Shown in pieces: positions 39,676-49,559 of a stretch of 49,559 nt of DNA; position 1 is the stretch's first letter, and each line of letters opens with the position of its first letter. The position numbers and the translations under genes are program-made. The DNA is from Bryobacterales bacterium (lineage in GTDB: Bacteria; Acidobacteriota; Terriglobia; Bryobacterales; Bryobacteraceae). The notes under the pieces are model-generated. The model ran no database searches. It was not told the origin of the DNA and saw only the letters and a list, made by a program, of their open reading frames with translations. The stretch is from contig DAIDIH010000368.1 of the NCBI GenBank assembly GCA_027459465.1, positions 1-49,559 on the forward strand. Direction: 5' to 3'.

Positions 39676-40884
39676 GTGCGGCGCGTAGTGGTCACCGGGC
39701 TCGGCGCGGTGACGGCATTCGGCGTGGGGGTGAAGCCGCTGTGGGAAGCGCTTTCAAGCGGGCGGCCGGGGTTTGCCGAGATCGAGGGCGTGGACTTAGC
39801 GAGGCTGCGGTTCCGGTTCGGGGCGCAGGTGCGGGGCTGGAACGGGGAAGAACATTTCGACCCGCGGGAGGCAACGCTACTCGACGTGTTCGCGCAGTAT
39901 GGCGCCGTGGCGGCGCGGGAGGCGATCCGGGCGGCGGGGGTGGAGTGGACGGGGGAGTTGCGGGAGCAGACGGCGATTGTGACGGGATCGTGCGTGGGCG
40001 GGCAAGGGAGCGAGGACGAGGAGTTCGTGGCGTTGTACGGGCGCAACAGTCCGCGAGTCAGCCCGCTGACGATTCCACGCATCATGGAGAATGCGGCGGC
40101 GAGCCGGATATCGCTCGAGCACGGGATTGTGGGGCCGGTGTATACGATTTCGACGGCGTGTTCGTCTTCGAATCATGCGCTGGGGCAGGCGTTTCATCTT
40201 GTGCGGTCGGGCGCGGTGGAGATGGCGGTTGCGGGCGGGAGCGAGGCGGTATTCAGCCTGGGCTTTTTGAAGGCGTGGGAGGCGATGCGGGTGGTGGCGC
40301 CGGACACGTGCCGGCCGTTTTCAGCGGACCGCAAGGGGCTGATCCTGGGCGAGGGGGCGGCGATGTTGGTGCTGGAGCCGATGGAGGCGGCGAAGGCGCG
40401 GGGCGCGACGATCTACGGGGAGATTGTGGGCTTTGGGATGTCGAGCGACGCGCATCATGTGACGCAACCGAGCGCGGAGGGGGCGGTGCGGGCGATGCGG
40501 GCGGCGCTGAAGGACGCGGGGCTGGCGGCGGAGGCGATCGAGTATGTGAACGCGCACGGCACGGGCACGCAGGCCAACGACTCGACCGAGACCGCGGCGC
40601 TGAAGTGCGTGTTTGGCGCTCACGCGGAACGGCTGCGCGTGAGTTCGACGAAGTCGATGCACGGGCACGCGCTCGGAGCGGCGGGGGCGATTGAAGCGGT
40701 AGCGACGCTGCTGGCACTGCGCGAGGGCGTGCTGCCGCCGACGGCGAATTACACGGCGCCGGACGCGGCATGCGACCTGGATGTGATTCCGAACGAGGCG
40801 CGGGCGGCGAAGTGCGAGTACGCGCTGTCGAATTCGTTCGCGTTCGGCGGGTTGAACGCGGTGGTTTGCTTCCGGGCGGCTTAG
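39676..40884 (+). CDS. Beta-ketoacyl-ACP synthase (KAS II/FabF family)
   Basis: A 402-residue condensing enzyme starting at GTG 39676. The Cys-His-His triad is intact: C162 in STACSSSNHALGQAF, H294 in NAHGTGTQANDSTE and H331 in STKSMHGHALGAAG, with K326. The N-terminal RRVVVTGLGAVTAFG and the C-terminal YALSNSFAFGGLNAVVCFR are standard. It elongates an acyl chain on the adjacent ACP. It may make an unusual fatty acyl group for a lipid or glycolipid rather than bulk fatty acids. Its TAG overlaps the stop of the convergent permease gene (TTAG). Confidence 0.92.
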   Translation: MRRVVVTGLGAVTAFGVGVKPLWEALSSGRPGFAEIEGVDLARLRFRFGAQVRGWNGEEHFDPREATLLDVFAQYGAVAAREAIRAAGVEWTGELREQTAIVTGSCVGGQGSEDEEFVALYGRNSPRVSPLTIPRIMENAAASRISLEHGIVGPVYTISTACSSSNHALGQAFHLVRSGAVEMAVAGGSEAVFSLGFLKAWEAMRVVAPDTCRPFSADRKGLILGEGAAMLVLEPMEAAKARGATIYGEIVGFGMSSDAHHVTQPSAEGAVRAMRAALKDAGLAAEAIEYVNAHGTGTQANDSTETAALKCVFGAHAERLRVSSTKSMHGHALGAAGAIEAVATLLALREGVLPPTANYTAPDAACDLDVIPNEARAAKCEYALSNSFAFGGLNAVVCFRAA

Positions 40885-42173
40885 TCCGGCTCGGTGGGGT
40901 GGAGTTCGAGCGGGGTGACGGGGTCGATGAACGGCCAGCAGAAGGCGCCGCAGAGGTAGACGGCGGCCATCGAGTAGAGGAAGATGTTCCAGTTGCCGTG
41001 GGTCAAGTGGAGGATGTAGCCGCCGGCGACGGGGGCGACGAAGCCGGCGAGGTTGCCGACCATGTTCATGGAGCCGGAGACGGTGCCGGCGAAGCGGCCG
41101 CCGATGTCCATGCAGGCGGTCCAGGAGGGGGGCATGACGAGGTCGTTGCAGAAGCTGGCGAGGCCCATGACGATCATGGCGAGCGGGGGGCTGTTCAACT
41201 GGCTGCAGAGAGCCATGAGGACGGAAGCGCCGACGAAAGCGGAAGTGGCGACGAGGCGGCGGGCGCGGGCGGTGCCGCCGATGTGGCGGGCCAGCGGCGC
41301 GAGGAGGAAACCGCACAGCAGAGCGCCGGTGCCGCCGAGCAGCAGTGGGAGAACGGAGTAGTTGGCGCTGGCCGCCTCAGACAGGTGGTGGCGCTCCTGG
41401 AGCCAGGTGGGCAGCCAGGTGATGTAGAAGTACCAGGGGTAGGTGAGGCAGAAGTATTGCAACCACAGGAGGAGCACATTGCGAGAGGTGGCGATTTTAC
41501 GCCAGGGGACGTGCGCATGTGTTGACGGCTGGGAAGCGCCGTGGTGGATGAGCGCGAGTTCGGCGGCGTTGACGCCGGGGTGGTCGGCCGGATTGTTGCG
41601 GTACCAGCGGGCGAAGAGGATGGCCCAGGCGATGCCGAGGATGCCGAAGACGGTGAAGGCCCAGCGCCAGTTCATCCAGGTGAGGCAGAGGACAACGAGT
41701 GGGGGCGTGAATGCCCCGCCCCAGCGGGCGAAGGTCCAGAGGATGCCCTGGGCGCGAGTGCGTTCGCCGTGTGGGAGCCAGGTGGCGAAGGCTTTGGTGA
41801 GATTGGGGAAGCAGCCGGCTTCGCCTGCGCCGAACAGGAAGCGGACGGTCACCATGGGGATGAAGGAGAACATCCAGCCCGAGAGGGCTTTGAAGGCGCT
41901 CCACCAGAGCACGATGCGGAGCAGGACGCCGCGGGCGCCGAGGCGGTCGCCGAGCCAGCCGCTGGGGACTTCGAACAGAGCATAGGCGAGGGCGAAGGCG
42001 CCGAAGACGTAGCCCATCTGCTCCTTGCTGAGGTGCAGGTCGCGCATGACGAGGGGGGCGGCCTGGGAGATGGAGACGCGGTCGATGTAGGACAGGATGG
42101 CAAGGGTGACGGCGAAGACGATGACCCAGTAGCGGGCGCGTGTTGGCGTTTCGGTGGCGTGGACGGGCGTCAC
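40881..42173 (-). CDS. MFS permease, anion:cation symporter type
   Basis: A 430-residue, roughly 12-segment permease. The start is a GTG at 42171-42173 overlapping the TGA of cutA (GTGA); the longer frame is a shadow of cutA. Family features are YIDRVSISQAAPLVMRDLHL in TM1, PSGWLGDRLGARGVLL (motif A) and GAGEAGCFPNLTKAFATWLP, typical of hexuronate/galactonate/phthalate symporters. It probably imports an organic acid such as a sugar acid. Coupling to cutA looks like operon economy rather than function. Confidence 0.88.
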   Translation of the reverse strand: MTPVHATETPTRARYWVIVFAVTLAILSYIDRVSISQAAPLVMRDLHLSKEQMGYVFGAFALAYALFEVPSGWLGDRLGARGVLLRIVLWWSAFKALSGWMFSFIPMVTVRFLFGAGEAGCFPNLTKAFATWLPHGERTRAQGILWTFARWGGAFTPPLVVLCLTWMNWRWAFTVFGILGIAWAILFARWYRNNPADHPGVNAAELALIHHGASQPSTHAHVPWRKIATSRNVLLLWLQYFCLTYPWYFYITWLPTWLQERHHLSEAASANYSVLPLLLGGTGALLCGFLLAPLARHIGGTARARRLVATSAFVGASVLMALCSQLNSPPLAMIVMGLASFCNDLVMPPSWTACMDIGGRFAGTVSGSMNMVGNLAGFVAPVAGGYILHLTHGNWNIFLYSMAAVYLCGAFCWPFIDPVTPLELHPTEPD

Positions 42174-42590: not shown

Positions 42591-43577
42591 TTACCTCGAT
42601 TTTTGAGTTGACAGGAAGAGTCTGCCCCATTCGGTGTCGAGCGCGCGCCTGACCCTGGCGCGGCCGACGAAGTTGTACCCGTAGACGTCGTGGTACAAGA
42701 CGACGTGGAAGTGGAAGTCGACTCCTTCGATACTGTCGCCGACGACTTCGATGTCGCGTGGATCGCCGCAACCCAAGCCTTGTTCGTGCGCCAGGCGGAT
42801 GAAGGGGATGGACAGCGGATCGAAGCCCCTCATCTTCGCCGCGATCGCGTCGATTGCGACCATGTCCCCGGAGGCGAGGATGTAGTTCTTCACGAGGGGC
42901 TCCATGCAGCGCGGACCGGGGCCGTCGCCCGCGAAGGTTCCGTCCATCACCGCGAACAGGCCGGGATGGATTTCCTTTTGAATGGCGAGCAGGTCGACGA
43001 GGGTCTCATGAATCACCGCATGAGTCCAATGGCGTTTCTCGAAGAGGAGGCCGCCGAAGGCGTTCTTCCTCGCGCCGGTGATGGTGGGGAACACGTGGGT
43101 TTTCATGGTCGGCAGGTGGATGACGTTCGAGCCGACGAGCCGCTTGGGAATGCGGGTCCCTTCCGGGTAGACCTTGTCCAGGACGCGCATCTTCGCCTTC
43201 GGCGTGTATCGAATCCACTCCTCGCCTGCCTCGTATAAATGCACGTTGCGGAGGCCATACTTCCCGACCAAGACCTGCTTGTGCTTGTTGGCCACCTCGC
43301 CGCGGCGGGCGCTTACGCCGACGGTGCGGTTGTGGCAGCCGAAGAGGCTCTCTTTCCGATAGCCGTCTTCGAGGAGGGTTGCAATGACACCGTCAAGCTG
43401 CCAGGGGGTGGTGGAGCAGGCCGGATAGAAGAAGTGCCAGGAAATGTTGATCTTGAGCGCGGTTTCGTGGTTCTTCGGGACGAACTGCCTATAATCGGCG
43501 AGGCGCATGAGTCGCGGATCGTCGTGGAGGACGGTGGAAGGGGACGTTTTCAGAACCGCGACACGGGGCCGGGTCAT
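42591..43577 (-). CDS. DUF362 family protein
   Basis: A 328-residue protein with DUF362 features: ALKINISWHFFYPACSTTPW near the N-terminus, VIHLPTMKTHVFPTITGARKN and GLLFEKRHWTHAVIHETLVD centrally and FAVMDGTFAGDGPGPRCMEP, then ILASGDMVAIDAIAAKMRGF. No ferredoxin cysteine motifs are present, unlike many relatives. Function unknown. The segment 43201-43260 has 15 G and 19 C on the plus strand, unlike the G-rich surroundings, so the gene may be acquired. The exported small protein gene ends 6 bp upstream. Confidence 0.8.
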   Translation of the reverse strand: MTRPRVAVLKTSPSTVLHDDPRLMRLADYRQFVPKNHETALKINISWHFFYPACSTTPWQLDGVIATLLEDGYRKESLFGCHNRTVGVSARRGEVANKHKQVLVGKYGLRNVHLYEAGEEWIRYTPKAKMRVLDKVYPEGTRIPKRLVGSNVIHLPTMKTHVFPTITGARKNAFGGLLFEKRHWTHAVIHETLVDLLAIQKEIHPGLFAVMDGTFAGDGPGPRCMEPLVKNYILASGDMVAIDAIAAKMRGFDPLSIPFIRLAHEQGLGCGDPRDIEVVGDSIEGVDFHFHVVLYHDVYGYNFVGRARVRRALDTEWGRLFLSTQKSR

Positions 43578-43583
43578 GGGGCA

Positions 43584-43973
43584 TCACCTCTGCCTGACGT
43601 GCACGCGAACCGTGACGGAGGCGCAGGCGAAGGAGGTGGACCCTTCGCAGCTAATGATGTAGGAGGTTGTCGACTCGGGCTTGACCTCAAGCGTGCCGCT
43701 GGAGCCGTCGAACGTGCCAAGTTTTTTCAACGCGACGTCGCCGGAGCGGGTTTCTTCTGCCTCCTCGATGGTGACTTTGGTGGCGCCCTTGATGGACCAG
43801 CGGAGCACCACGGCTTCTCCGGCCGTGATTTCCTTTGGCTTCGCTTCGAAGATGAAGTCTCTTGACGCCTTGTCTTTTTGTTTCTGGTCGACGCGGGGGG
43901 CGCCCGGGGCCAGGCCGGCGGCCATTCCCAGAACCAGGAGGGAGAACGGCCAGAGACGGCGATGCAGGCACAT
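43584..43973 (-). CDS. Small exported Ig-like protein
   Basis: A 129-residue protein. ATG 43973 is chosen because it has GAGG with 7-nt spacing and starts a signal peptide (CLHRRLWPFSLLVLGMAAG). The mature part, from about FIFEAKPKEITAGEAVVLRW to YIISCEGSTSFACASVTVRV, resembles a single bacterial Ig-like domain as found in surface adhesins: a tryptophan in strand C, an STTSY motif and two cysteines. Function unknown. It precedes the DUF362 gene by 6 bp and shares its atypical, less G-skewed composition. Confidence 0.65.
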   Translation of the reverse strand: MCLHRRLWPFSLLVLGMAAGLAPGAPRVDQKQKDKASRDFIFEAKPKEITAGEAVVLRWSIKGATKVTIEEAEETRSGDVALKKLGTFDGSSGTLEVKPESTTSYIISCEGSTSFACASVTVRVHVRQR

Positions 43974-44045
43974 GTCGAATCCTCGATTCACCATGAGCCA
44001 GTGCAATCGCCGTGCCAAGCCGTGTTCGGGCGCTGCCCGACGGGC

Positions 44046-44222: not shown

Positions 44223-44285
44223 CTTGGGCAGTGGCGGGGGAATTGGGATAAGATCTTGGCCTGACGGGAACCGGGAGAGACGACG

Positions 44286-45683
44286 ATGAAGAGACGACGG
44301 AGAGCTGGGATCACGCGGCGGTCGATGATGCGGAGCGCCGCGGCGGCGGCGATGTTCGGGCCGCTGTTTCAGGCGACGGAGGGTTCGGTGAGCGGGCAGG
44401 AGCGGGTGAACAAGAACTCGGCGCCGAGCACGCTCAAGATTACCGATATGCGGGCGTGCCGGGTGGCGGCGAACTACGATTACCCGCTGATCCGGATTGA
44501 CACGAACCAGGGCGTGTACGGGTTGGGCGAGGTGCGGGACGCGGGCGTGGAGGGGATCGCGCTGATTTTGAAAGCGCACCTCCTGGGCAAGAATCCGCTG
44601 AACATCGAAGCGAATTTGCGGACGGCCCGCCAGTTCGCCAATCACGGGCGGATGGGCGGCGGATACAGCGCGTTGGACATGGCGCTGCACGATATTGCGG
44701 GAAAAGTTTACGGCGTGCCGGCGCATCGGCTGATCGGGAATAAGAACCACGACCGGGTGCGGATCTACGCCGATACTACGAGCCATCCGGATCCGAAGGT
44801 GTACGCCGAGCGGATGCGGAAGCGGCGGGCGATGGGGCTTACGTTTTTCAAGATGGACTTGCAGTCGAGCATGTTGAAGGACCGGCCGGGGGCGTTGAAC
44901 GAGCGGGGCGTGTGCACGGAGAAGGGGCTCGGGTATCTGTGCGAATATATCGCCGCGATCCGCGATGTGCTTCCGCCGGGCGCGCCGCTGGCGGCGGACC
45001 ATTTCGGACGGCTGAACGTGAACGACTCGATCCGGTATGCGCGGGCGTTCGAGCCGTATCAGCTTTCCTGGGCGGAGGATCTGCTGCAGATTTCCGAGGG
45101 AGCGATCCATCCGTATCTGAACTGGCAGGCGTACAAGACGATTTCGGATGCGACGGTGACGCCGGTGCTGACGGGGGAGGACATCTTCGGACTGCAGGGA
45201 GGGTTTCAGGAGTTACTCGACCATCACGCGGTGGACGCGATTCATCCGGACATTGAAACGTCGGGCGGGTTGCTGGAGACGAAGAAGATCGCCGATTACG
45301 CGACGATGCGGGGGATTCAGGTGGCGATGCACCATGCAGGGTCGCCGATCGGAGGGTTTGCGGGATACCACTGCGCTTCCACGTTCGGGGACAATTTCCT
45401 GGCGATGGAGAACCATGCGCTCGATATGCCGTGGTGGCAGGACCTGGTGACGGGCGTGCCGAAGCCGATTATCGAAAACGGGTATGTCAAGGTTCCCGAC
45501 GACCGGCCGGGGCTGGGACTGGAGTTGAACGATGCGGTGGTGAAGCAGCATCTGCGGCGGCCAGGATACTTCGAGCCGACGCCGATGTTCGACGATCTCA
45601 TTGTTTCCGGATTCCACACCGGCGGCGCGTGGCCGCATTACGACGAAACGGGGAAATGGTGTAACTGTGTGACCTATGAGTAA
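44286..45683 (+). CDS. Tat-exported enolase-superfamily (mandelate racemase/muconate lactonizing) enzyme
   Basis: A 465-residue protein with a twin-arginine signal (ITRRSMMRSAAAAAMFGPLF). It has the capping domain (LKITDMRACRVAANYDYPLI, then GYSALDMALHDIAGKVYGVP) and the (beta/alpha)7-beta barrel: K-x-D at K189/D191 (FFKMDL), metal ligands D238 (AADHFG), E264 (SWAEDL) and E298 (TGEDIFG), then HPDIETSGGL and VAMHHAGSP. It should abstract a proton alpha to a carboxylate, probably as an acid-sugar dehydratase or epimerase, but outside the cytoplasm. The next gene overlaps it by 8 bp. A GGGAGAG ribosome site precedes the ATG. Confidence 0.87.
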   Translation: MKRRRRAGITRRSMMRSAAAAAMFGPLFQATEGSVSGQERVNKNSAPSTLKITDMRACRVAANYDYPLIRIDTNQGVYGLGEVRDAGVEGIALILKAHLLGKNPLNIEANLRTARQFANHGRMGGGYSALDMALHDIAGKVYGVPAHRLIGNKNHDRVRIYADTTSHPDPKVYAERMRKRRAMGLTFFKMDLQSSMLKDRPGALNERGVCTEKGLGYLCEYIAAIRDVLPPGAPLAADHFGRLNVNDSIRYARAFEPYQLSWAEDLLQISEGAIHPYLNWQAYKTISDATVTPVLTGEDIFGLQGGFQELLDHHAVDAIHPDIETSGGLLETKKIADYATMRGIQVAMHHAGSPIGGFAGYHCASTFGDNFLAMENHALDMPWWQDLVTGVPKPIIENGYVKVPDDRPGLGLELNDAVVKQHLRRPGYFEPTPMFDDLIVSGFHTGGAWPHYDETGKWCNCVTYE

Positions 45684-46554
45684 GAGTCGAGTGAAGTACC
45701 TAGTTAGCGGACTGGCCGCGGTGTTGCTGGCGTTTGCGGCGGACCCGACTTACATGCACCGGTATTTTCCGCTGATCTCGCCGGCGCAGGACGACTTAAC
45801 GTTCCGGACGCAGGGAGTGACTTACCAGCCGGCGTTCGGGGCCGATGATGCGCAGGCCGGGCAACTGAAGAGCATTGCGCGGTACGGGATGTTGACGGTG
45901 GACCCGAAGGCGGAGACGAGGCTGGTAAGTTATCCGGCGGAGGAGCAGATTTACTATGTGCTGAGCGGCAACGGCGTGCTGATTTACGGCGGGCAGAGGG
46001 TTCCGGTGAAGGCGGACGACTATCTGTATCTGCCGGTGGGGCTGGAGCACGGGATGGCGAACGAGTCGGATGCGCCGGTGAAGGTGCTGGTGATGGGGTT
46101 TCGCATTCCGAAGGGCGTGACGGTGAAGCCGACGCCGAAGCTGATGATGGCGAACTCGGGCGACGTGCCTTATGTGAAGGTGGAGGGGCACGGGGAGACG
46201 GTGCATTTCAAGCTGCTGATGGGGACGACGGCGAGCAAGCGGGACAAGCTGGCGGCGGCGAGCCAGATGGTGAGCCTGTTTATTATGGACTTCGCGCCGG
46301 GCGGGACGAACATTCCGCACCACCACGAGATGGCGGAGGAGATTTACTACATTCTTCGCGGTCACGGCGACATGGTGGCGGGCGGAGGGTTGGACGGCAA
46401 TGAGGGCCGACATCCGGCGGGCGTGGGCGATACTTATTTCATCCGTCTGAACGCGACGGTAGGATTTTATAGCGGATCGCGGACCGGCGAGCACGATGAA
46501 GTGCTGGCGGTGCGATCGCGGTATCCGTTTCCGAAAGATCAAGGGGAGGAATAG
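45676..46554 (+). CDS. Exported bicupin
   Basis: A 292-residue protein with a hydrophobic N-terminal signal (VKYLVSGLAAVLLAFAADP). It contains two cupin barrels: the first around residues 70-140 (EEQIYYVLSGNGVLIYGGQR, then YLPVGLEHGMANES) and the second around 190-285. The second carries the metal-binding motif IPHHHEMAEEIYYILRG and HPAGVGDTYFIRLNATVGFY. The second barrel looks catalytically competent for a metal-dependent isomerase, dioxygenase or epimerase; the first lacks the HxH pair and may be structural. It is translationally coupled on both sides and belongs to the exported-enzyme operon. Confidence 0.85.
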   Translation: MSKSRVKYLVSGLAAVLLAFAADPTYMHRYFPLISPAQDDLTFRTQGVTYQPAFGADDAQAGQLKSIARYGMLTVDPKAETRLVSYPAEEQIYYVLSGNGVLIYGGQRVPVKADDYLYLPVGLEHGMANESDAPVKVLVMGFRIPKGVTVKPTPKLMMANSGDVPYVKVEGHGETVHFKLLMGTTASKRDKLAAASQMVSLFIMDFAPGGTNIPHHHEMAEEIYYILRGHGDMVAGGGLDGNEGRHPAGVGDTYFIRLNATVGFYSGSRTGEHDEVLAVRSRYPFPKDQGEE

Positions 46555-47832
46555 ATGGAAGGGACGTATTTGAGCCGGCGCATGGCGTTGAAGTGGGCGG
46601 CGGCTTTGCCGGTGATGGGGACGATTGCGGCCGATTCGCTTTTGGCGGCGGCGAAGGAGGCCGTGAGCGGGAAGGCGCCGGGGAACATTTACTCGACGAT
46701 CGGCGTGCGGACGTTTATCAACGCGCGCGGGACGTGGACGTACTTGAGCGGGTCGCTGGAGCTGCCGCAGGTGCGGACGGCGAAGTTCGAGGCGTCGAAG
46801 CATTTCGCTGATATTTTCGAGCTGCAGCACGCGGCGGGGAAACGGCTGGCGGAGTTGTCGGGCGCGGAGTCCGGGATGGTGACTTCGGGGGCGGCGGGAG
46901 CGATGGCGTCGGCGACGGCGGCGTGTTTGGCGGGAACGGATCCGGCAAAGATCTGGCAACTTCCGGACACGACGGGGATGAAGAACGAAGTGGTGATGCA
47001 CGGCGGGCGGAGCGCGTTTGACAGCGCGATCCGGCTGGCCGGGGCGAAGCTGGTGGTGGCGCGGTCGGCGGAGGAGTTGAAGGCGGCGATCGGTCCGAAC
47101 ACGGCGATGGTTTATACGACGTCGCTGGGGGACACGCTGAAGGAGACGCTGGCGATTACGAAGGCGGCGGGCGTGCCGATGCTGCTGGACGATGCGGCGG
47201 GGATTCCTCCGATATCGAATCTGCGGCTGTATGCGCAGATGGGGATCGATCTGTTTTGTTTCAGCGGCGGGAAGGGACTGGGCGGGCCGCAGTGCTCGGG
47301 CTTGCTGCTGGGACGAAAGGATCTGATCGAGGCGGCGCTGAAGAACACGAGTCCGTGGGAAGGCGCGGTGTGCCGGGCGATGAAGGTGGGCAAGGAAGAA
47401 GTGATGGGCGCGCTGGCGGCGGTTGAGGCGTGGGAGAAGATGGACCTGGCGTCGCTGAACCAGGAGTGGAACCGGCGCGTGCAACGGATTGCGCGGTTGG
47501 TGGAACTGGTGCCGGGGGTGACGACGGACATTCAGATTCCCACGGATGGGAACCGCTATCCGACGCTGACGGTGAACTGGGATGTGGACAAGTGGAACTT
47601 CAGCGTGCAGGATTGCGACCGCGAGTTGCGGGCGGGCGAGCCACGGATTGAAGTGCTGACGGACACGAACCCCAGCATGGTTTCGGCGGTGGAAGAGCAT
47701 CACGACAACAAGACGCCGCGCGAGAACAAGCTGCAGATCATTTCGATGACGATGCAGCCGGGGGAAGAGATTATTGTCGGGCGGCGGCTGCGGGCAATTC
47801 TCGAAGGGGCTCGGAAGCGGGCGAAGGCGTAG
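46555..47832 (+). CDS. Tat-exported SelA-fold PLP enzyme (D-glucosaminate ammonia-lyase-like)
   Basis: A 425-residue fold-type-I PLP enzyme of the SelA/DgaE group. The N-terminus is a twin-arginine signal (LSRRMALKWAAALPVMGTIA), unusual for a PLP enzyme. Family features are YSTIGVRTFINARGTWTYLS, FELQHAAGKRLAELSGAESG, VTSGAAGAMASATAACLAG, MLLDDAAGIPP (PLP Asp) and the Schiff-base lysine K240 in FSGGKGLGGPQCSGLLLG. Relatives eliminate ammonia from 2-amino sugar acids or cleave amino acids. It has a strong GGGGAGGA ribosome site and abuts the bicupin gene directly. The partner RidA gene follows 18 bp later. Confidence 0.85.
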   Translation: MEGTYLSRRMALKWAAALPVMGTIAADSLLAAAKEAVSGKAPGNIYSTIGVRTFINARGTWTYLSGSLELPQVRTAKFEASKHFADIFELQHAAGKRLAELSGAESGMVTSGAAGAMASATAACLAGTDPAKIWQLPDTTGMKNEVVMHGGRSAFDSAIRLAGAKLVVARSAEELKAAIGPNTAMVYTTSLGDTLKETLAITKAAGVPMLLDDAAGIPPISNLRLYAQMGIDLFCFSGGKGLGGPQCSGLLLGRKDLIEAALKNTSPWEGAVCRAMKVGKEEVMGALAAVEAWEKMDLASLNQEWNRRVQRIARLVELVPGVTTDIQIPTDGNRYPTLTVNWDVDKWNFSVQDCDRELRAGEPRIEVLTDTNPSMVSAVEEHHDNKTPRENKLQIISMTMQPGEEIIVGRRLRAILEGARKRAKA

Positions 47833-47850
47833 GAACGGGGGGCAGGACCG

Positions 47851-49071
47851 ATGAGAGCAATGGCGATGGCGGTGGTGTGCGCGCTGGCGGCGTGCGCGGC
47901 GTACGGGGCGGAGGTGAAGCAGATTTTCCCGCCGGGGACGAAACCGGCGGGGCCGTACAGTCCGGGAGTGCTGGTGGGCGAGTATCTCTACGTGGCTGGA
48001 CAGGGGAGCCAGTTGGCGGACGGGACTTTGCCGCAGGGCGAGGAGGAACAGATCCGGCAGTGTTTGCGGAACGTCGAGACGGTGGTGAAGGCCGCGGGGC
48101 TGACGATGCGGCACGTGGTTTACGTCCAGGTGTATCTGACGGATTATTCGAGCGAGGCGGCGCTGAACCGCGTGTGGAGGGAGTTTTTCCCGGCGGCGCC
48201 ACCGGCACGTTCGACGATTGGCGTGGCGGCTCTGCACGCGACGAACGTGGAGATGAGCGCGGTGGCGGTGAAGGACCTGGCGTTGAAGAAGACGGTGGCG
48301 GTGGATGGGTACGACACGCCAAGCGTGCCGATTTCAGCGGCGGTGCGTGTGGGGGACCGGCTGTTTGTTTCGGGGCATCTGGGGCGGGATATCCGTACGG
48401 GCGAGATTCCGGTGGATCCGGGCGAGCAGGTGACGCTGGCGATGAAACGGCTGGAGGGGACGCTGAAGGCGGCCGGCGCGGGGTTCGAGAATCTGGTGTT
48501 TGTGAACCCGTATCTGACTTCGAAGATACCGATGGGGGTGATGAACCACATCTACGCGAGCCATTTCGAGTTCGGGAATACGCCGGCGCGGGCGACGATT
48601 GAAGTGGCGGGGTTGCCGGGCGGGGCGAACATCGAGTTTACGGGCGTGGCTGTGATGGATCTGGGGAAGCGGCGCGCGGTGCGTCCGAAGAACATGGCGC
48701 CGAGTCCGACGGCGAGCCCGTGCGTGTTTGCCGGCGATACGTTCTATTGCTCGGCGAAGTCGGGCTTCATTCCGGGCGTGAACGGCGGCGTTTATGCGTC
48801 GACGGTGGAGACGCAGATGCGGCAGACGATGCGGAACCTGCTCGACGGACTGGAAGAAGCGGGGATGGATTTTTCGAACGTGGTGGCGAGCAACGTGTAT
48901 CTGGACGATGCCCGGGATTTCACGCGGATGAATGGCGTGTATGCGGAGTATTTTGGGGCCGTTCCGCCGGCGCGGACGACGGTGCAGCAGATTGCGCCGG
49001 GGGTGCGGGCGGCGGATGCGAAGGGGCATTGGCCGGAGCTTGAGCAGGTTTCGATTGTTGCCGTGAAGTAG
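47851..49071 (+). CDS. Exported protein of three tandem RidA (YjgF/UK114) domains
   Basis: A 406-residue protein with a Sec signal (MRAMAMAVVCALAACAAYGA). Three RidA domains follow, at about residues 21-147, 148-275 and 280-406. Each keeps the arginine of the PAR motif that is needed for imine hydrolysis in RidA: PPARSTIGVAAL, TPARATIEVAGL and PPARTTVQQIAPG. The downstream acidic residue is visible in domains 1 and 2 (NVEMSAVAV, NIEFTGVAV). Free-standing RidA is ~130 residues and trimeric, so one chain may mimic a whole trimer. It probably hydrolyses the unstable enamine/imine made by the neighbouring PLP enzyme. Confidence 0.9.
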   Translation: MRAMAMAVVCALAACAAYGAEVKQIFPPGTKPAGPYSPGVLVGEYLYVAGQGSQLADGTLPQGEEEQIRQCLRNVETVVKAAGLTMRHVVYVQVYLTDYSSEAALNRVWREFFPAAPPARSTIGVAALHATNVEMSAVAVKDLALKKTVAVDGYDTPSVPISAAVRVGDRLFVSGHLGRDIRTGEIPVDPGEQVTLAMKRLEGTLKAAGAGFENLVFVNPYLTSKIPMGVMNHIYASHFEFGNTPARATIEVAGLPGGANIEFTGVAVMDLGKRRAVRPKNMAPSPTASPCVFAGDTFYCSAKSGFIPGVNGGVYASTVETQMRQTMRNLLDGLEEAGMDFSNVVASNVYLDDARDFTRMNGVYAEYFGAVPPARTTVQQIAPGVRAADAKGHWPELEQVSIVAVK

Positions 49072-49151
49072 GGCGAAACGCAGGGATCCGACAGGAAAGA
49101 TAAGCTAATCGACAATTGAAAAAAGTTGTGCCATACTAGCGCGCATACTTT

Positions 49152-49191: not shown

Positions 49192-49559
49192 ATGACGCTG
49201 AAGATCGCCGTTTTGCTTGTGTCCGGACTTGCCTCGGGATTGGCCGCCGCTCAGAATGCGTGCGTGGCGTCGCCGCCGTTGGCGACGATTTCGGCGCCGC
49301 ACGAGGCGGGGTCGCCGGAGTTGACGGTGGACCCGGGGGCGGCGATTTGGAAGAAGGCGGCGCGGGCGGAGATTGTGAAGGACTGCTCGCAGGAGCTGGA
49401 TTATCCGGGGATCCGGAGCGAGGTGCGGGCGTTCTGGACGGACGACGATTTATACCTGCTGTTTCAGTGCCCGTACACGGTGCTGAACCTGTGGCTGCCT
49501 CCGATGGGCGGCGGGCCGCGGGTTAAGCTGTGGGACCGGGACGTGGTGGAGATGTTTCT
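49192..49559 (+). CDS. Secreted CBM9-like domain protein (5' part)
   Basis: The frame starts at ATG 49192 and stays open to the end of the window, giving 122 residues. A signal peptide (MTLKIAVLLVSGLASGLAAA) is followed by a segment of the carbohydrate-binding-family-9-like type: AIWKKAARAEIVKDC, then VRAFWTDDDLYLLFQCPYT and KLWDRDVVEMF, the usual order of the early strands. Such domains bind sugar ends or heme-like ligands in exported Acidobacteriota proteins. It lies 120 bp after the RidA gene and probably has its own control region. Confidence 0.75.
   Translation, partial: MTLKIAVLLVSGLASGLAAAQNACVASPPLATISAPHEAGSPELTVDPGAAIWKKAARAEIVKDCSQELDYPGIRSEVRAFWTDDDLYLLFQCPYTVLNLWLPPMGGGPRVKLWDRDVVEMF

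Follow-up and report, generated by a model that had tools for sequence, protein, structure and literature searches.

This study revealed a block of four genes in a Bryobacterales bacterium, a soil-type acidobacterium, encoding an enolase-superfamily enzyme, a bicupin, a SelA-fold PLP enzyme and a triple-domain RidA, all of which plausibly appear to be exported. We assign a probability of roughly 55% to the reading that the four enzymes are exported and encoded in one operon, in which two older modules were joined, with the lyase and RidA acting on an amino-sugar acid in the periplasm. As a genomic pattern, the exported lyase-RidA module is real.

The gene block and its export signals

The window, which is the whole stretch of 49,559 nucleotides that was analysed, corresponds to contig C368 of a 6.58 Mb assembly (410 contigs, 94.6% complete, 7.3% contaminated). 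The block comprises four intact ORFs (Table 1), whose spacings of -8, 0 and +18 bp agree with the description in the earlier note of genes that overlap or lie at most 18 bp apart. When genome contigs were scanned with the PLP protein, three loci were retrieved, all near-identical; two sister genomes that carry near-identical copies are Acidobacteria MAGs. In the three sister copies, a cytochrome c-quinoprotein dehydrogenase (acido-empty-quinoprotein group A) comes after the CBM9-like gene. As variable inserts separate the CBM9-like gene from the block, it was regarded as a neighbour rather than as a member.

Table 1. Genes of the block and of its surroundings in the window.
Feature	Position	Strand	Remarks
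Enolase-superfamily (MR/MLE) enzyme, Tat-type leader	44286..45683	+	465 aa; Pfam MR_MLE_N/C
Bicupin, Sec-like leader	45676..46554	+	292 aa; two Cupin_2 stretches (Pfam)
SelA-fold PLP enzyme, DgaE/DGL-related, Tat-type leader	46555..47832	+	425 aa; Pfam SelA
Triple-domain RidA (3x-RidA), Sec-like leader	47851..49071	+	406 aa; three Ribonuc_L-PSP stretches (Pfam)
CBM9-like protein, N-terminal part, putatively exported	49192..49557	+	truncated at contig end
MFS transporter, galactonate/anion-symporter type; candidate importer	40881..42173	-	upstream of block

The N-termini agree with the two twin-arginine and two Sec-like signals that had been proposed for the four products. The motifs ITRRSMM and LSRRMAL precede hydrophobic stretches in the enolase and the PLP enzyme, and the bicupin and the triple RidA show Sec-like leaders. 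For the PLP protein, the alignment to the NCBIfam DgaE models begins only at residue 44-45, and its signal is therefore a genuine N-terminal extension. According to home-made heuristic patterns, as opposed to SignalP, and with automatic starts, a Tat-like signal is present in 81% of 67 members of the PLP family versus 15% of 713 unlabelled genes at the same loci, and a Sec-like signal in 82% of 50 RidA-labelled genes versus 28% of the unlabelled genes, an enrichment beyond chance. With starts set by alignment and a loose pattern, a Tat-like leader was found in 63 of 65 PLP rows, a few of which represent a single gene listed under two locus ids. Orthologues and paralogues alike keep these leaders, of the Tat type in the PLP enzyme and of the Sec type in RidA. 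The genome also encodes TatC, and all three features sought for a Tat substrate were therefore found, the other two being the twin-arginine motif and the hydrophobic stretch. Judging from these leaders, a Tat-type signal appears to be near-universal among the DgaE-like PLP enzymes, which form a large family in acidobacteria.

It is highly improbable that the four proteins are cytoplasmic or membrane-associated, with N-terminal stretches that result from wrongly placed starts or have no function. The reliance on heuristic patterns and the high background of the Sec-like one (28%) speak for this view. Nevertheless, the twin arginine and the hydrophobic leader are conserved across PLP homologues of 37-98% identity whose N-termini are otherwise variable, this leader lies outside the DgaE models, and the conserved part of the bicupin relatives, corresponding to the mature protein, opens with ADPT directly after a variable hydrophobic leader.

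Linkage of the four genes in related genomes

Linkage was counted in 121 related genomes, for pairs at most 3 kb apart among the best matches listed. Compared with random placement in 6.2 Mb, for which the Poisson figures overstate independence because orthologous pairs are dependent, we found 18 enolase-bicupin pairs (0.06 expected), 9 PLP enzyme-RidA pairs (0.16 expected), 6 pairs of a PtaA-like aminotransferase with RidA (0.02 expected), linkage of the PLP enzyme to a deacetylase with an export signal in 9 genomes (0.55 expected) and one PLP enzyme-enolase pair, the window itself (0.12 expected). In view of these pairwise counts, a single conserved unit of four genes was rejected. The earlier note had treated the four enzymes as one conserved pathway; instead, they form two separate conserved pairs, united only in this genus. 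The expected co-occurrence in other genomes held for each pair (18 and 9 pairs), whereas the four-gene set scatters outside the genus.

Among the matches listed in these 121 genomes, the four-gene order is limited to genus g1, where it occurs in the window, in C277, in G001 (split across two contigs) and in G003 (in pieces). The C277 copy belongs to the same assembly as the window. It was rejected as a paralogue and is considered to derive from a co-binned sister strain, since synteny extends into its flanks, with a DNA identity of about 91%. Beyond this genus, the enolase-bicupin and PLP-RidA pairs are linked only through two cases in which bicupin homologues stand divergent beside PLP genes (G011 and G075).

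The pairing of the PLP enzyme with RidA is recurrent, not universal. Nine of 43 triple RidAs adjoin a DgaE-like gene and most do not, and PLP-RidA adjacency recurs in a number of distinct clades when mapped on the PLP tree, where the RidA-neighbour label needs about 5 changes, four of them forced by well-supported branches. In six genomes, a triple RidA lies directly downstream of a Tat-type PtaA-like aminotransferase unrelated to the DgaE-like enzymes, with gaps of 15-37 bp (the RidA match of G045 is in two pieces, which is why 417 is listed as its gap). Single-domain Tat-type RidAs are found beside other DgaE-like members (L081, L082 and L096), and contig C118 of the window's own genome carries a quinoprotein dehydrogenase and a divergent PLP-RidA-MFS set with a single-domain Tat-type RidA. 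Two PLP families are therefore paired with two RidA architectures, all with export signals, and this is the strongest evidence for a functional coupling. At the level of sequence, the proposed coupling between PLP elimination enzyme and RidA, both exported, is supported as recurrent and non-random.

It is a serious possibility, if short of even odds, that the block consists of two unrelated exported modules that became chance neighbours in this genus, the enolase and bicupin acting on a sugar acid and the PLP enzyme and RidA on another amino acid, with no shared intermediate. This would fit the separate conservation of each pair across the family, as well as G002, a member of the same genus with enolase-bicupin on C97 and PLP-RidA on C110. 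In contrast, the spacings of -8 and 0 bp are preserved in the sister copies, and the unrelated inserts of differing lengths found in the g1 copies lie solely outside the block, between it and its flanks, so that the four genes remain together. In addition, an independent operon in G006 again unites an exported PLP enzyme, here the PtaA-like aminotransferase, with a triple RidA and a Tat-type enolase that is non-orthologous to that of the window; a Tat-type DHDPS/KDG-aldolase-like protein completes this operon, whose genes overlap by 4 bp. The divergent bicupin homologues of G011 and G075, with their adjoining PLP genes, also argue against unrelated modules.

Catalytic residues and putative reaction

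With regard to the enolase, the metal ligands and the Lys/His-Asp set (K189, D191, D238, E264, E298, D322 and H349) are invariant in 21 sequences. Its nearest curated models are sugar-acid dehydratases, although it falls below every equivalog cut-off, the best score being 135.5 versus 311 bits for galactonate dehydratase. The second domain of the bicupin retains an HxH...E site (H215, H217, E221/E222), and the first a single-His site (E89, E90, Q91, H125). Because of their strong linkage, the enolase and the bicupin are likely to act together; the isomerase role suggested for the cupin in the earlier note is a candidate.

The closest solved relative of the PLP enzyme is DGL (7LC0; E 2e-31), yet the DgaE cut-offs are missed by far (153.8 versus 385.3 bits and 133.6 versus 600 bits). 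In an alignment of 64 homologues with DGL, the PLP lysine K240 and D212 are invariant, and R254, which is equivalent to the carboxylate-binding Arg226 of DGL, is kept in 57 of the 64 homologues. The phosphate-binding Arg301 aligns with T337, while two further residues tested lie outside the alignable stretch. The threonine at this position fits a non-phosphorylated substrate. D-glucosaminate-6-phosphate is disfavoured, given a periplasmic site without ATP and the missing Arg301.

His-162 and His-163 of DGL correspond to G192 and D193, and among the 64 homologues the histidine pair is kept only in three paralogues (L075_4, L076_6 and L088_7). The H163A variant of DGL is fully active, but it releases an enamine instead of an imine, and its authors tie this release to a toxicity that RidA relieves (PMC9529869). 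As the proton donor His-163 is absent, we infer by analogy that enamine release also applies to the window enzyme, which would be helped by the adjoining imine/enamine deaminase. A strict correlation between histidine loss and an adjacent RidA was rejected: the pair is gone in nearly all members, whereas a RidA gene lies within 5 kb at only 8 of 54 DgaE-like loci. Most members without the histidines thus have no adjoining RidA, and are therefore either served by a RidA encoded elsewhere or need none.

The triple RidA scored 226.7 bits over three stretches with Pfam and 209.3 bits with TIGR00004 (cut-off 106.25 bits). Its Arg105-equivalents R120, R247 and R375 are kept in 29/35, 35/35 and 34/35 sequences, respectively. 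An AlphaFold2 model, computed from an input of three near-identical sequences, reached a mean pLDDT of 40, too low to be usable.

The clusters of relatives provide clues to the substrate. That of G011 (L044) comprises an orthologous lyase, an enolase-family protein, an IolE-like protein and a triple RidA, together with two Tat-type lactonase-type amidohydrolases, a galactonate-type MFS carrier, an HpaI/GarL-type aldolase without leader, and an EF_0837-type amidohydrolase/deacetylase with an export signal that scores above the NF006689 cut-off. G023 combines a deacetylase, a paralogous lyase, RidA and a GarL-like aldolase. As a lead only, EF_0837-type deacetylases are usual neighbours of the cytosolic DGL system. 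In that system, the lyase is paired with an aldolase (PMC9529869). The common theme, and most likely the substrate if family and gene neighbours alone are taken as a guide, would be a non-phosphorylated 2-amino-2-deoxy-aldonic acid.

We propose that two older exported two-gene modules joined to give a four-enzyme exported operon. The DgaE-like lyase would be loaded with PLP in the cytoplasm, leave it folded through Tat, and eliminate water in the periplasm from a non-phosphorylated beta-hydroxy-alpha-amino acid, most likely a 2-amino-2-deoxy-aldonic acid, of which D-glucosaminate or a stereoisomer would be examples. Without the His-163 donor, the product released would be the enamine, and the Sec-exported triple RidA, presumably acting as a covalent trimer, would hydrolyse the imine that forms from it, giving ammonia and a 2-keto-3-deoxy acid. 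An MFS sugar-acid carrier may then import this acid for cleavage by an aldolase, as suggested by the carrier and the aldolase of the G011 cluster. The enolase-bicupin module probably turns a related sugar acid into a similar product in the same compartment.

The SelA-fold enzyme could also be an exported racemase, aldolase, desulfurase or an enzyme that tailors secreted metabolites or peptidoglycan, while RidA would quench stray imines in general. The scores far under the DgaE cut-offs and the absent histidines would be consistent with such a role, and Tat-exported PLP enzymes such as PvdN work on siderophores. We consider it rather unlikely, as the best solved relative is DGL itself, 2-keto-3-deoxy-acid aldolases and the deacetylase known from the DgaE triad recur as neighbours, and RidA is a partner of PLP eliminases.

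Comparison with known systems

The proposed lyase resembles DGL/DgaE in its SelA fold, PLP lysine, aspartate and carboxylate-binding arginine, and its relatives have the same classes of partners, a deacetylase and a keto-deoxy-acid aldolase. It differs from DGL/DgaE in its Tat-type leader, its RidA partner and the lack of His-162/His-163 and of the phosphate-binding Arg301, and in scoring far under the curated cut-offs. Triple RidAs were described in 2015 by Niehaus et al. (PMC4433059) as presumed covalent trimers, and the window protein shares their three tandem domains. In contrast to these, it has a Sec leader and shares operons with PLP enzymes that are themselves exported; neither signals nor the periplasm were mentioned in that paper according to a text search.

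In the ong oxidative chitin pathway of Pseudoalteromonas (OngA-OngD and KdgK cluster), the PLP-type deaminase OngC, annotated as a D-amino-acid deaminase, converts glucosaminate to 2-keto-3-deoxygluconate and ammonia, and the RidA-family protein OngD is essential, with no role assigned (PMC9537276). The likeness lies in PLP-type deamination of glucosaminate beside a RidA-family protein. At the level of the gene cluster, the comparison covers the RidA resemblance. OngC is not a SelA-fold DgaE-like enzyme, and OngB and OngC are predicted to be cytoplasmic (PMC9537276).

The view that such chemistry is normally cytosolic holds in part. A Tat-exported PLP enzyme that reaches the periplasm has a precedent in PvdN (PMC6085387); enzymes of the PvdN/PtaA type resemble the proposed lyase in their Tat leader and periplasmic action and differ in their role in pyoverdine maturation, and no RidA partner has been described for them in the literature searched. 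Neither an exported RidA nor an exported lyase-RidA pair was found in this literature, which comprised papers accessible without subscription. Taken singly, the triple RidA and the Tat-exported PLP enzyme are already known, and on the literature searched it is their exported combination that is new.

RidA is known for shielding PLP enzymes of the cytoplasm against enamines of the 2-aminoacrylate type. Should exported lyases require it as well, this cannot be its sole purpose, and it would become testable whether RidA finishes the reaction or guards Tat-exported PLP enzymes from self-inactivation. Tentatively, Acidobacteriota may degrade amino-sugar acids (or hydroxyamino acids) completely in the periplasm, with deacetylase, PLP lyase, RidA and sometimes aldolase exported. 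Reactive enamines would then arise and be quenched in a compartment separate from the cytoplasm and its PLP enzymes, and the loss of the histidine donor and the recruitment of an exported RidA could represent one coupled adaptation. As genomes hold many DgaE-like paralogues (up to 14 among the matches listed), the finding points to an unassigned catabolic capacity in this large, mostly uncultured soil phylum.

Surroundings and second copy of the block

The enzymes and TonB-type proteins encoded at window 14730-39422, upstream of the four-gene block, form a glycan-degradation neighbourhood (Table). The DUF362 and small exported-protein genes keep their upstream position in the sister copies of the block, where they are separated from it by inserts of approximately 0.3, 1.2 and 2.8 kb. 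The source assembly holds a second copy of the entire block on contig C277 (locus L042), with 93% DNA identity to window 44234-49072 and with flanks syntenic to those of the window. Contamination of this assembly was 7.3%, and the C277 copy probably belongs to a co-binned sister strain.

Table. Features of the window and of compared loci
Location	Feature
Window 14730-39422	GH106 rhamnosidase; sulfatase with SGSH C-domain; sialic-acid-type acetylesterase; polysaccharide deacetylase; two large TonB-type outer membrane proteins
Window 42591-44018	DUF362 protein; small predicted exported protein (upstream of block)
L042:1284-3605	Quinoprotein dehydrogenase, acido-empty-quinoprotein group A, N-terminal cytochrome c (near sister copies of block)
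L082:279-2630	As L042 (window's own genome)
L172:4846-9249 (G006:C393)	PtaA-like aminotransferase; triple RidA; enolase-superfamily protein; DHDPS-family aldolase (predicted exported)

The L082 quinoprotein dehydrogenase, 65% identical to those near the sister copies, is divergent from an adjoining Tat-PLP/Tat-RidA/MFS operon.

Related gene sets in other genomes

The G006 set, in which all four genes overlap, is an independent analogue of the window block. Triple RidA genes also lie directly 3' of an apparent ribosome recycling factor gene, identified as such by eye, in three genomes (L198, L205 and L206).

Tandem Tat-PLP paralogues

Tandem paralogues of Tat-PLP, the SelA-fold enzyme with a Tat-type leader, occur at L075 (G086), L076 (G085) and L088 (G084); predicted exported deacetylases adjoin those in L075 and L088. 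In all three tandems, one paralogue keeps the His pair of the solved relative DGL (His-162/His-163), whereas its neighbour has lost it. Such paralogues with and without the pair constitute a natural test pair for the role of His-163, the proton donor in DGL.
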